A DNA stretch of 22,046 nt from positions 1 to 22,046 of IMG/VR virus record IMGVR_UViG_3300029798_000039; one strand, written 5' to 3'. The stretch is from a virus. The notes beneath the pieces are model-generated. The model was given only the letters and a program-made list of their open reading frames with translations, ran no database searches and had not been told where the DNA came from. The position numbers and the translations under genes are program-made. This document shows, one piece after another, positions 6,213-17,799 of this stretch; the stretch's first letter is position 1; every line of letters begins with the position of its first letter.

Positions 6213-8513
6213 ATGGCAGATGATATCAGCGTAAGAATCGGGGGCAGTTCGTCTGATGCGCAAAAGGCGATTACCGATGTCACCCAGGCTTTAAAAGACG
6301 GCGCGGCCCAGATGACAAGCCACCTGGGCCTGATTACGGCGGGCTTCGATAAGTTCAAGGGCGTCCTGATCGGTGCCACTGCTATTCTGGCTGGCGGAGC
6401 CATGTTTAAAGCGGCAATGGGTGCCGCGAACGATTGGGATTCAAAAGTAGCCCAACTCTCGAAATCAATGGGGATTGCCACCGAAAAGGCTTCGGTGATG
6501 GCGGTGGCAATAAACCATGTCGGGCTTACCTCTGACCAGGTTTCAACTGCATCCATGATGCTTTCCCGACAGATGAACAGCAACGCTAACGCGTTCAAAG
6601 TTTTGGGAGTCGAGACAAAAAACACAGAGACAGGAGCATTGCGCCCAATTAGCGACGTGATGCTTGATGTTAACACAAAACTAAGGGGGATTAAAAACAC
6701 TATAGAGCAAAACGTAGCCGGAATGCAGGTTTATGGACGCTCTTGGAGCAGTATTCGGGGCATTCTTCTTTTGACAAAGGACCTGTTTGATCAATCTGAA
6801 GAGACGGCGAAACGATTGCATTTAATTGTTGGCCCGGAAGGAATCGCACAAAATAAGGCATATCAAGCATCACAAAGAGATGTAGCTCTCATCGCCAAGT
6901 CCCTTGAAATCCAGGTTGGAAATGCGCTTTTACCAGTCATGTCTAAATTGGGAAAATGGATGGGCGAAGAAGGGCCGCAGATGACGAAGGTGTTTACCCA
7001 CGTTCTTAATGGCTTGGTCGCTACAGCAGAAACAATTTACTATACATTTTTAGAGGTCGGAAACACTCTGGGAGGGGTAGCGGCGGCGGCGGTAGAGCTC
7101 GCTCATGGTCATCTTTCGCGTTCCAAGGAAATCCTGGGCGAGATCACGTCAACGAATGAGGTCACAGCCAAGAAGGTAAGTGAAATTTGGGAACACGCCT
7201 TCGATGCAGAAAAGCTCCCGCCTCTCCCGAAAGCCCCCCCTGGTGATGATAAGCCGCTGGACTTCTCCAAGGGGAAAGACGCAAAAGGGCCGGCAGAGAA
7301 AGACACCCGCCTGCAAGAATGGAAGAACGAGCTGGAGCAGATGAAGGAGGCTGAAAAGGACTACTTTAAGGACTCTAAGGCGTCTGACGAACAATATTGG
7401 ATTGCAAAGCTGGCCCTTGTCCAGGGCGGCGGCGCGAAAGAGGCGGCGCTCAGACGGCAGATTGAGCACGAGCTGTTCAATATCCACAAACAGATGGCCC
7501 AGGAACAAAGGGCGCTTGATGATGAAGCGGACGCAGCAAAGAAGGCAGCCGGGCAAAATCTTCTTGATATCAAAAAGGCGCAGCTCCAGCAAGAGTTGGC
7601 TATGGGCAGGATAAATGAAGGGCAAGAAATAGCCGGGGAACAGTCTATTCTGCAACAGAAATACCAGATAGACCTGCAAGAGCTTGATTCAAAACTTCAG
7701 AGGTACGCGGATGACAAGCTGGCATATGCCAAGCTCCAAAAGGATAAACTTGCCTTAACGCGGGAATACCTAGCCGACACGCAGCAGCTCACGGACAAAA
7801 TGGCGATAGACAACAAAAAGGCTATCGAGTCGATGCTTTCTGGGATCACTAGCGCCTTTGGCTCTGCAATAACCGGGCTGATTCAAAAAACAACGACGTT
7901 TAAACAGGCATTCCAACAGATCATGAGCTCTATCCTTTCTACCTTTATCGGGGCCATCATGAAAATGGTGGGCGAATGGGCGGCGGGAGAACTGGCAAAG
8001 ACGGCGCTTGCGCAGAAAGGTAGCCTTTTTCGGACCATACTGGAGAAGGTCGGGCTTTTGCAGACGGCGGCGGCTGTAACCACGGCTTCCGACACGACTG
8101 TTGCAGCAAAGACTGCAGAAGCGGAGGCGGTTATCCCTGGGGAGGCGGCGGTTGCTGCTGGTGGCGCGGCCTCTGCCGTTGCGTCGGTTCCTTACGATGG
8201 GCCTGAGATGGCGGCGGCGGCTTATGATGAAACATACGCAATGGTCATGTCCGGCATGGCGGGTTTTGCGGTCGGCTCTTGGAACGTCCCCGGCGATATG
8301 TTTACCAAGATCCACAAAGGGGAAATGATCGTACCCGAACAGTTCGCCTCAAGCGTCCGAGACGGCGGCGGGCTCGGTGGTGGTGGGGACGTTCACCTAC
8401 ACGTTAATGCTGTTGATTCTGACAGTGTTAAGCGGCTTTTTCGCGACAATGCGGCGGCACTCTCTGAGGTCTTGCGGCGTCAGGTTCGGAACTTTGCGCC
8501 GGTGAGGGCATAA
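6213..8513 (+). CDS. Tail tape measure protein
   Basis: 766 aa, by position and architecture the tape measure that sets tail length and fills the tube. Residues ~40-65 are hydrophobic (GFDKFKGVLIGATAILAGGA). A long charged helical region at ~370-530 is likely coiled coil, followed by a hydrophobic segment at ~540-640 (ITSAFGSAITGLIQ, then SILSTFIGAIMKMVGEWAAG) and Ala-rich sequence. The C-terminus has VGSWNVPGDMFTKIHKGEMI followed by VPEQFA, a motif shared by the C-terminal ends of many siphovirus tape measures. Using the usual ~1.5 A per residue, the tail would be on the order of 115 nm, assuming little processing. AAGGAT (6200-6205) precedes the ATG. Confidence 0.9.
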   Translation: MADDISVRIGGSSSDAQKAITDVTQALKDGAAQMTSHLGLITAGFDKFKGVLIGATAILAGGAMFKAAMGAANDWDSKVAQLSKSMGIATEKASVMAVAINHVGLTSDQVSTASMMLSRQMNSNANAFKVLGVETKNTETGALRPISDVMLDVNTKLRGIKNTIEQNVAGMQVYGRSWSSIRGILLLTKDLFDQSEETAKRLHLIVGPEGIAQNKAYQASQRDVALIAKSLEIQVGNALLPVMSKLGKWMGEEGPQMTKVFTHVLNGLVATAETIYYTFLEVGNTLGGVAAAAVELAHGHLSRSKEILGEITSTNEVTAKKVSEIWEHAFDAEKLPPLPKAPPGDDKPLDFSKGKDAKGPAEKDTRLQEWKNELEQMKEAEKDYFKDSKASDEQYWIAKLALVQGGGAKEAALRRQIEHELFNIHKQMAQEQRALDDEADAAKKAAGQNLLDIKKAQLQQELAMGRINEGQEIAGEQSILQQKYQIDLQELDSKLQRYADDKLAYAKLQKDKLALTREYLADTQQLTDKMAIDNKKAIESMLSGITSAFGSAITGLIQKTTTFKQAFQQIMSSILSTFIGAIMKMVGEWAAGELAKTALAQKGSLFRTILEKVGLLQTAAAVTTASDTTVAAKTAEAEAVIPGEAAVAAGGAASAVASVPYDGPEMAAAAYDETYAMVMSGMAGFAVGSWNVPGDMFTKIHKGEMIVPEQFASSVRDGGGLGGGGDVHLHVNAVDSDSVKRLFRDNAAALSEVLRRQVRNFAPVRA

Positions 8514-15527: not shown

Positions 15528-15956
15528 ATGCAAGACACGAAAATTTATTATCAGAAGTTCGGGGACGGATGTTTTCAACTTGTCCGCCCCTATCACTATG
15601 AGTCGGGAATAAAAACCGGCTTCCCCTGCAGCCTTCCGTTTCTGACCTATGACGGAAAGGGGCAATTTGTCTTCCTTCCCGGCTTTTGTTGGGACGGAGC
15701 AAGCGTACCCGGCCAGCTGTCGGCCCAGACAATAGCGGAAATCATGTTGTCTTTGCCGCATGATGGAAAATTCCGGATGTTCAGGGCGGGCCTGATTGAC
15801 CCGCTGGTATGGCTGGAAACAGCAAATAAAGAGATGAGGGCAGACGCGATCAAGGCGGGGATGCCTTTTGCAGAATCAGAAATTTTCTTTGTGGCGGTTC
15901 GGGATTTTGGATCCAAAAACGCTTTTGGCGGCAACCCTATTTTGGAGGCAGCATGA
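15528..15956 (+). CDS. DUF1353-like phage protein
   Basis: 142 aa; near-ideal ribosome site AAGGAGG (15513-15519). The order of motifs follows DUF1353: FLPGFCWDGASVPG (in place of F.TDlaSvP), SLPHDGKFR (the HD position), a helical EMRADAIKAG (the AD position) and a C-terminal FFVAVRDFGSKNAFGG. The family occurs in many phage genomes near fibre and lysis genes, with no firmly established function; a virion or tail-associated role has been supposed. Stop overlaps the next start (ATGA at 15953). Confidence 0.7.
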   Translation: MQDTKIYYQKFGDGCFQLVRPYHYESGIKTGFPCSLPFLTYDGKGQFVFLPGFCWDGASVPGQLSAQTIAEIMLSLPHDGKFRMFRAGLIDPLVWLETANKEMRADAIKAGMPFAESEIFFVAVRDFGSKNAFGGNPILEAA

Positions 15957-16528
15957 AAACATTAACAACTCAGTTTTACCTTGTGGCCCTGGTCTTTCTT
16001 ATCGTCATCGCCCTTTGTATTCCGGCGGTCCCGGAAGAGACGAAGGCCCAGCTTAGACCGTGGCTTTATCCTCTTCTAATTATGATCAACCCGAAACAGG
16101 GGACGGGTGCGGATATTTTCCCAGCTCAAAAAATCGATATTCCAAAGGAGGTAACGGCTACGGTGAAAAGCCTGGTCCTTGTCTTTCTCTTCTGTCTCTT
16201 CACCCTGCCTCTTGCCGGGTGTGGGTCCATGAACGAGGGCAGCGGCGCGGTATTGAATTACGCGGCCCAGAATTACGCGGGCGCCAAACAGAATGTCCAG
16301 AGCGCGGATGATATGCGGCTCGTTGCTTGGTCGGATCAGGCTTGCGCGATGAATGTTGGAGCCCTGGCCAGAAACGCAACCGGCAACCCGAACATTGTAA
16401 AGGCCGTCCTGGAGGCCTGCCCTGTCCCTTCCGTTGGGGTGATAAGCATGGGGGCGGGAAGTATCAATATTCAAACGGTGGCGGTCCCTGCCGTACTGAC
16501 GAAGCCCTACGGCGTTACGGGCCCATAA
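15953..16528 (+). CDS. Membrane protein/lipoprotein gene, long form (two hydrophobic segments)
   Basis: 191 aa from ATG 15953 (TTGGAGG at 15942-15948; ATGA overlap). Residues 8-26 form a transmembrane segment (FYLVALVFLIVIALCI), then a ~45-residue polar linker, then a second hydrophobic run at 73-87 that ends in the lipobox LAGC (Cys90). The remainder (MNEGSGAVLNYAAQNYAGAK, LVAWSDQACAMNVGALARNA) resembles phage lipoproteins of unknown function. The lipobox and a perfect ribosome site lie before codon 71 in the same frame, so the locus probably makes a second, shorter product (next entry). The linker may be a separate small gene that has lost its stop. Location between fibre and lysis genes allows a lysis or envelope role; no function is assigned. 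Confidence 0.65.
   Translation: MKTLTTQFYLVALVFLIVIALCIPAVPEETKAQLRPWLYPLLIMINPKQGTGADIFPAQKIDIPKEVTATVKSLVLVFLFCLFTLPLAGCGSMNEGSGAVLNYAAQNYAGAKQNVQSADDMRLVAWSDQACAMNVGALARNATGNPNIVKAVLEACPVPSVGVISMGAGSINIQTVAVPAVLTKPYGVTGP
16144..16152 (+). promoter_or_regulatory. Internal ribosome binding site deciding the GTG 16163 start
   Basis: AAAGGAGGT is an extended anti-16S match located inside the reading frame of the 15953 gene, ten bases before an in-frame GTG that begins a textbook lipoprotein signal peptide. Confidence 0.75.
16163..16528 (+). CDS. Lipoprotein, short form from internal GTG start
   Basis: 121 aa from GTG 16163, in frame with the 15953 gene. AAAGGAGGT (16144-16152) lies 10 nt upstream, the best ribosome site in the window. 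From this start the N-terminus is a complete lipoprotein signal: K2, a hydrophobic stretch (LVLVFLFCLFTLPLAGC) and a perfect lipobox LAGC with Cys20. The mature part is ~100 residues, Ala/Asn rich, with two further Cys (DQACAM, EACPVP). Read from the upstream start, the same hydrophobic run would be an internal membrane segment and could not act as a normal lipoprotein signal. Role unknown; outer membrane or periplasmic anchoring is inferred from the signal. Confidence 0.7.
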   Translation: MKSLVLVFLFCLFTLPLAGCGSMNEGSGAVLNYAAQNYAGAKQNVQSADDMRLVAWSDQACAMNVGALARNATGNPNIVKAVLEACPVPSVGVISMGAGSINIQTVAVPAVLTKPYGVTGP

Positions 16529-16580: not shown

Positions 16581-16883
16581 ATGCGAAATGTAATTGTGAA
16601 TGTTGGAACGACCCCGACCGACCCGCAGACTTTCCCCGGCCAGGTGTGGGCGGGCATCGACATCGGCCTTGGCGATTTCCCAAAGCAGCGCGTGACTGCA
16701 GCCACCTATTCCGCCACCTTCCTTGGTGTCCCTGCTGGCTCTTATGTAATGACGGCCCAAGCGGTTGATACAGAAGGCCAGCCCATGGGGCCGGAGCTAA
16801 CTGGACAGGCTGACGTTGTGGACGTTGACGTGCCGCGTCCGCTTGTTGATATCCCGGCGGGGCTATCCTTCACCCTGGCTTAA
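16581..16883 (+). CDS. Small beta-rich phage protein, function unknown
   Basis: 100 aa; GAGGT (16569-16573) eight bases before ATG. The composition (alternating Val/Thr/Gly, VWAGIDIGLGD, ATYSATFLGVPAGSYVMTAQ, AVDTEGQPMG) suggests a single Ig- or FnIII-like beta sandwich with no signal peptide or membrane segment. It is separated from its upstream neighbour by 52 bases and closed by a strong terminator, so its dosage is set apart from the lysis genes. It could be a virion decoration or adhesin-type domain; I recognise no named family. Confidence 0.65.
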   Translation: MRNVIVNVGTTPTDPQTFPGQVWAGIDIGLGDFPKQRVTAATYSATFLGVPAGSYVMTAQAVDTEGQPMGPELTGQADVVDVDVPRPLVDIPAGLSFTLA

Positions 16884-16955: not shown

Positions 16956-17198
16956 ATGCCTAATGTTTCAATCACCGGGTCCGAGCTTGTCCGGTATGTC
17001 TTATGGATGTTGACTTGTATCGTCGGCTACCTGTTGACACGGTCGCTGAATAAAATCGATGCAACTATCTTAATCATTTTCGAGAAAATAAAAGAACTGG
17101 GCGACGGTCAACAGGCCCAGGAAATAAAATTGACGGAGCAGGTCACAACCTGCGAGGTCTGCAGGTTGTCCTGTCCGCAAAGGGTGAAAAAGAAATGA
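16956..17198 (+). CDS. Small one-TM protein with C-terminal Cys motif (holin or lysis-accessory candidate)
   Basis: 80 aa; AAGGGG precedes the ATG. Residues ~11-28 form one transmembrane helix (VRYVLWMLTCIVGYLLT). Residues 30-63 are amphipathic and may be coiled coil (IDATILIIFEKIKELGDGQQ). The C-terminus contains Cys66, Cys69 and Cys73 (TTCEVCRLSC) and a basic tail (RVKKK). Gene position two genes before the endolysin, the small size and the membrane helix fit a holin, antiholin or inner-membrane spanin-like part, but I recognise no family. The stop overlaps the start of the next peptide gene (ATGA at 17195). Confidence 0.65.
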   Translation: MPNVSITGSELVRYVLWMLTCIVGYLLTRSLNKIDATILIIFEKIKELGDGQQAQEIKLTEQVTTCEVCRLSCPQRVKKK

Positions 17199-17322: not shown

Positions 17323-17799
17323 ATGATCCCCACAAATAGAAAAGCGTTCCTTGACATGATAGCCTGGTCGGAAATCGGCCCGGAGCTGCTGGCGGCTTCC
17401 GATAACGGGTACAATGTTATCGTCGGGTCAACCCCCGGCCATCCTGTCCTGTTCAACTCGTATGCGGATCACCCCCGGCAACTTGTCCATTTCGAAAACG
17501 GCACCCCGGACAGTACGGCGGCGGGACGGTATCAAATCAAGGTTCGCATTTTCGATTTCTATACTAAACAGCTCAAACTTGACGGGACGTTTTCACCTGC
17601 GAATCAGGACGCTATTGCCCTGCAGCTTATTAAGGAGTGCCACGCTTTGCCCCTGATTGAAGCGGGCAATATCGTTGCGGCTATTCCCCTGTGTTCGTCC
17701 CGGTGGGCTTCCTTGCCCGGCAATACATATGGGCAGCGAATGAATAAACTCTCAGCCCTGACCGGCGCGTATAAAAACGCGGGCGGTCAGGTTGTTTAA
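17323..17799 (+). CDS. Endolysin, lambda R-type lytic transglycosylase
   Basis: 158 aa from ATG 17323 (AAGGAAG 17311-17317), the same length as lambda gpR; the upstream extension of the frame to 17245 has no matching sequence and overlaps the zinc-ribbon peptide. The sequence follows gpR throughout: NRKAFLDMIAWSE with the catalytic Glu at residue 17 (Glu19 in lambda), NGYNVIVGS, YADHPRQLV, STAAGRYQIK, FSPANQDAIALQLIKE, ALPLIEAGNI, RWASLPGNTYGQ. The enzyme cleaves the glycan MurNAc-GlcNAc bond to form 1,6-anhydro ends. There is no signal or anchor sequence, so export should depend on a holin. Endolysin export via holin agrees with the small membrane gene upstream. Confidence 0.95.
   Translation: MIPTNRKAFLDMIAWSEIGPELLAASDNGYNVIVGSTPGHPVLFNSYADHPRQLVHFENGTPDSTAAGRYQIKVRIFDFYTKQLKLDGTFSPANQDAIALQLIKECHALPLIEAGNIVAAIPLCSSRWASLPGNTYGQRMNKLSALTGAYKNAGGQVV

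Follow-up and report, generated by a model that had tools for sequence, protein, structure and literature searches.

The window, by which we mean the whole stretch of 22,046 nucleotides of viral DNA that we analysed, carries a lysis region in which one open reading frame has two in-frame start codons, each preceded by a ribosome site. The part of the frame upstream of the second start is called A here and the part downstream is called B. The features of the locus are as follows.

15528..15956, + strand: DUF1353-like gene, which overlaps the start of A (PHROG 1158, E=9e-5)
15944..15948, + strand: GGAGG, the ribosome site of the upstream start (Shine-Dalgarno energy -9.3 kcal/mol)
15953..16528, + strand: fused ORF A-B, 191 aa, ATG start, an open frame without interruption
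15953..16162, + strand: part A, a small membrane protein (40% identity over 45 aa to L002:7801-7986)
15974..16030, + strand: TM1 of A, residues 8-26 (Kyte-Doolittle mean 2.95)
16052..16093, + strand: weak second hydrophobic stretch of A, residues 34-47, LRPWLYPLLIMINP (19-mer Kyte-Doolittle 0.12)
16144..16152, + strand: internal ribosome site AAAGGAGGT, with a gap of 11 nt from GGAGG to GTG
16163..16528, + strand: part B, the lipoprotein from the internal GTG, 121 aa
16163..16219, + strand: signal peptide of the short-form lipoprotein (M-K, then a hydrophobic core, then LAG ahead of the Cys)
16164..16166, + strand: TGA within GTGA, out of frame with A, at the position of A's overlapping stop in L002
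16211..16222, + strand: lipobox LAGC, with the Cys codon at 16220-16222 and Gly at +2
16956..17198, + strand: small protein upstream of the endolysin, with a single hydrophobic segment (no family match)
17323..17799, + strand: endolysin, 0.8 kb downstream of the fused ORF (PHROG 90, E=9e-44)

The ATG at 15953 overlaps the TGA (15954-15956) of the preceding gene, and the GTG at 16163 lies 70 codons further on in the same frame. An earlier note on this DNA had proposed a single gene with these two starts, encoding a TM segment and a second hydrophobic run with the lipobox LAGC, and all of these elements are present, the second run corresponding to residues 73-91 of the long form. The strong ribosome site that it had assigned to the GTG was likewise confirmed: the pairing of CAAAGGAGGTAACGGCT with the anti-Shine-Dalgarno sequence gives -12.9 kcal/mol, the strongest value among the 17 starts of phage genes scored in the window. 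Only ~0.1% of 3147 background positions there match that score, so the internal ribosome site is not a product of chance. The hydrophobic stretch at residues 34-47 was absent from that first list; at the matching place, most relatives have a clearer TM-like second segment.

By sequence, the short form MKSLVLVFLFCLFTLPLAGC-GSMNEG... is a textbook prolipoprotein, with a signal peptide and lipobox ending in Cys as in substrates of signal peptidase II. The lipobox Cys is invariant in an alignment of ten B lineages, all of which also share a core at residues ~54-93 (window 16322-16450) of the pattern W.D.ACA...GAL.RN..GN....A...ACP.P.VG, in which two cysteines are conserved. For A, B and the fused forms, relatives included, neither Pfam nor PHROG gave a significant family; the fused ORF of the window had no Pfam match, and its best PHROG hit had only E=0.52. 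AlphaFold2 models of B reached a mean pLDDT of 46 with 4 sequences and 43 with 9 sequences, which is too poor for a fold search. A PDB profile search gave weak matches of B to designed armadillo repeats (E=0.004), which we attribute to chance similarity between helices.

The nearest relative, L002, comes from a delta-proteobacterial MAG and is the sole relative that the genome collection yielded; searches of genomes from its host's order, phylum, class and family returned L002 again together with one weak match, L014, an apparently unrelated lipoprotein, and tblastn in phage and plasmid collections found no relatives. Alignment with relatives, which the earlier note had suggested as a way to see if the two parts occur as separate genes, showed that in L002 they do: A (7801-7986, 61 aa) and B (7983-8354) are two genes overlapping at ATGA, where the TGA of A overlaps the ATG of B (AAAATGAAAA). 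Between the window and L002, the B proteins are 69% identical and the A proteins 40% identical over 45 aa. Both B starts have the ribosome site AAAGGAGG, placed 10 nt before the ATG in L002 and 11 nt before the GTG in the window, and it is encoded by the P-K-E residues common to the ends of both A proteins. Compared with L002, the window has one extra base between the ribosome site of B and its start codon, and because of this base the stop of A is out of frame and the two genes are joined. We regard it as probable, on these sequence comparisons, that the ORF is a recent in-frame merger of an adjacent lysis-region pair, A and B, from which free B and an A-B precursor are probably both made.

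The one-base difference could also be read as a sequencing or assembly indel, in which case the real A would stop at the TGA overlapping the start of B, as in L002, and no fused product would exist. The two layouts do differ by exactly one base, with the TGA of the GTGA sitting just where A of L002 stops, and searches found no second copy of the window junction, so that the extra base is known from one assembled contig. However, the junction has no homopolymer, where errors of this kind usually occur, and the same pair is fused in four other contigs, which indicates that the fusion is viable in this family. We consider such an error unlikely.

Those contigs belong to a set of ten B lineages, counting L002 and the window, that was assembled from pattern and profile scans of IMG/VR, and scans by different routes repeatedly gave the same contigs. 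A and B are separate in five of the ten lineages (L002, L003 with its near-copies, L022, L030 and L031) and fused in the other five (the window, L007, L020, L021, whose fused ORF is cut by the contig end, and L044/L037). Among the separate pairs, the upstream small membrane gene of L022 overlaps B by ATGA, independently of L002; L003 has a different gene upstream of B; and L030 and L031 have a further small lipoprotein gene between the two-TM gene and B. That further gene, just upstream of B, is L031:2343-2621 and its counterpart in L030, and it ends TRTETRTCTTDFWGNQNCTVTVERH. The tree built from mature B is small, and most of its branches other than the window-L002 pair (support 99/99) are weakly supported; on it the fused or separate state needs four changes, at least two of them forced by well-supported branches.

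All four of the other fusions keep the lipobox (LSGC in L007, LGGC in L020, LTGC in L021 and LSGC in L044), and none of them has an internal ATG, GTG or TTG with both a strong Shine-Dalgarno site and a basic n-region. In L007 and L021 no in-frame ATG, GTG or TTG with a good ribosome site precedes the signal core; L020 and L044 have weak candidates, in L020 an ATG whose site is weak (-5.0) and which lacks a basic n-region, and in L044 a purine-rich stretch (-10.8) from which the codons at a suitable spacing are all CTG. That these fusions keep a lipobox without a good internal start suggests continued use of the internal lipobox. The window is the only lineage in which a single ORF has both starts well supported. 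The earlier note had itself named the conservation of only one start in relatives as evidence against its reading, and the dual-start layout indeed occurs among these lineages in the window alone, the pair being separate genes in L002 and fused without a well-supported internal start in the other four cases. Because the dual start is not conserved, a conserved topology switch can be rejected. What stands of the proposal of two products from one gene is the two starts, with two products likely and a lipoprotein coming from the internal one; the conserved one-gene device with two topologies does not. Judged from these sequences, the two starts have the look of a gene pair in the course of merging, not of a topology switch that is built in.

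A dual-topology gene could still be envisioned for the window itself, where the long form would keep its second run as an uncleaved TM segment, with the C-terminal domain in another place, the short form would be a lipoprotein, and the ratio of the two would matter. Both ribosome sites are strong, which speaks for such a gene. The A halves are highly divergent and, outside the window-L002 pair, were compared mostly through hydrophobic pattern and position; by hydropathy the second hydrophobic segment is stronger in L020, L021, L022, L030, L031 and L037/L044, short and weak in the window and L002, and weak also in L007. Where A has two hydrophobic segments, as in most relatives, B's signal would begin at the cytoplasmic face of the membrane, which restores its normal orientation, and the C-terminal domain would be periplasmic in both forms. 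The second stretch of the window is weak, so that perhaps only one TM segment precedes the signal there, and the topology of its long form could go either way. Since relatives either keep the two parts as distinct genes or carry a fusion that lacks a well-supported internal start, we hold a dual-topology gene to be very improbable.

Under the merger reading, the transition could have happened as follows. The ancestral A and B genes would have overlapped at ATGA and been translationally coupled, until a change of one base in the length between the Shine-Dalgarno site of B and its start put the stop of A out of frame. Ribosomes that start at 15953 would then read on into B to give an A-B precursor, and those that start at the GTG at 16163 would still make the free prolipoprotein B, so that both products would be present. 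The short form would be lipidated and, with Gly at +2, directed to the outer membrane. In the long form, Lgt may modify the internal lipobox and LspA may cut it, and this cleavage would leave A in the inner membrane and release B as a lipoprotein whose final location is unchanged. It can be hypothesized, tentatively and with rather less confidence than the merger itself, that the fusion works as a phage polyprotein, in which host Lgt and LspA lipidate and cut the internal signal, a single translation product thereby giving rise to an inner-membrane protein and to a lipoprotein in equimolar amount. If that were true, the fusions without a well-supported internal start, most clearly L007 and L021, would depend on cutting by LspA. 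The fusions that have a lipobox and no good start thus raise the question of whether signal peptidase II can act on a lipobox that lies within a membrane protein. Literature searches on internal lipoprotein signals or holin-lipoprotein fusions found nothing relevant in titles and abstracts. Taken together, the relatives form a natural series for the merging of coupled genes, from separate overlapping genes, to a fusion with an internal start, to fusions without a well-supported one.

Our confidence in the merged gene pair does not extend equally to its function, for which the reading is weaker. From gene context the most likely function of A and B is that of a lysis accessory, where the pair would assist the nearby endolysin. 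A Glucosaminidase endolysin lies upstream of A in L007, L022, L030 and L044, and in L007 and L044 clear DUF1353 genes come after the fused gene. Lipase_3-type genes (L002:8354-8950; L022:10557-11201; L020:509-1420, - strand; L030:8785-9435, - strand) stand immediately behind B in L002 and L022 and at a greater distance downstream in L020; for L030, the Lipase_3 match of the gene that comes after B falls below the curated cutoff. The Lipase_3-type gene near the endolysin has no visible signal peptide and overlaps B by ATGA or TAATG in L002, L022, L030 and L031; it might have a role in envelope disruption. Two further observations concern these regions. The lysis regions of the window (16581-16883) and of L031 (1687-1998) encode similar small, probably beta-rich proteins with 30% identity over 69 aa. 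Ahead of the endolysin in L015 and L016 (G630), which have relatives of the window endolysin, come a gene for an unrelated lipoprotein, one other gene and a gene for a one-TM protein, and this order implies that a lipoprotein recurs at this place with different sequences.

A small protein with TM segments beside an endolysin could be a holin, and A may be a candidate: it lies near an endolysin and has two hydrophobic segments in most relatives, although the second is weak in the window, L002 and L007. Against Pfam and PHROG, A of the window, L002, L007, L020, L021 and L022 showed no significant similarity to a known holin family, nor did A of L030, L031 and L044 against PHROG. L044 already encodes a holin of the LydA type (PF16083), and the holin role need not fall to A.

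The main rival to a lysis accessory role is superinfection exclusion, in which B would be a Cor/Llp-type lipoprotein that masks a receptor or blocks injection, with A as its small membrane partner, the two forming a late-region moron. The small lipoprotein lies directly after the tail genes, the phage has an integrase, and the position of B resembles that of llp in T5 and cor in phi80 and N15. The B protein of L022, alone among those scanned, matches PHROG 1119 (Cor), at an E of 0.22 that is not significant, and the match spans only the signal region and the first mature residues. Moreover, the endolysin and lipase genes are the more constant neighbours, and we consider exclusion somewhat unlikely. 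Whichever role applies, B is a lipoprotein family without annotation, and its position close to endolysins and lipases suggests that it could serve an undescribed phage function, either in the outer membrane or in exclusion.

Among known systems, the two-component spanins (Rz/Rz1, T4 PseT.3/PseT.2) resemble A and B in having, within the lysis region, a gene for an inner-membrane protein that overlaps one for a lipoprotein, and A and B could be a divergent pair of this kind, with A as i-spanin and B as o-spanin. With its lipobox and Gly at +2, B may be an outer-membrane lipoprotein as an o-spanin is, its C-terminus is proline-rich in L003, L007 and L044, and no other spanin was recognised in the stretches read. 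However, an i-spanin has one N-terminal TM segment and a long periplasmic domain, whereas A, at about 61-70 aa, has no long periplasmic coiled-coil domain and usually two hydrophobic segments; B has no central proline-rich stretch, and neither protein matches a family. The unimolecular spanins, such as T1 gp11, also combine a lipobox and a TM segment in one phage protein, but that family has an N-terminal lipobox and a C-terminal TM domain (PMC6139136), and the order in the window is reversed, with the TM segment or segments first and the lipobox internal. On the anatomy of A, a spanin identity seems highly doubtful.

The earlier note had also likened the gene to dual-start lysis proteins, and the genomic neighbourhood agrees with this. 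The S107/S105 holins of lambda likewise have two in-frame starts on one lysis-region gene, only a few codons apart, which give holin and antiholin. The mechanism does not carry over: in the window 70 codons lie between the starts, which set off entire domains and not a difference of two residues, and the layout is not conserved. With the Cor/Llp exclusion lipoproteins, B shares its nature as a small phage lipoprotein in the late region; it differs in having no significant profile match, and its steadier neighbours are lysis genes. The remaining comparison is with coupled ATGA pairs and their natural fusions. Coupled -4/-1 gene overlaps have been described (PMC10666635). As in such pairs, A and B would have merged in frame through the loss of an overlapping stop, and separate and fused forms coexist in relatives. 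The difference is that the downstream gene, B, starts with a lipoprotein signal, so that in the fusion a signal and a lipobox come to lie in the middle of a membrane protein.
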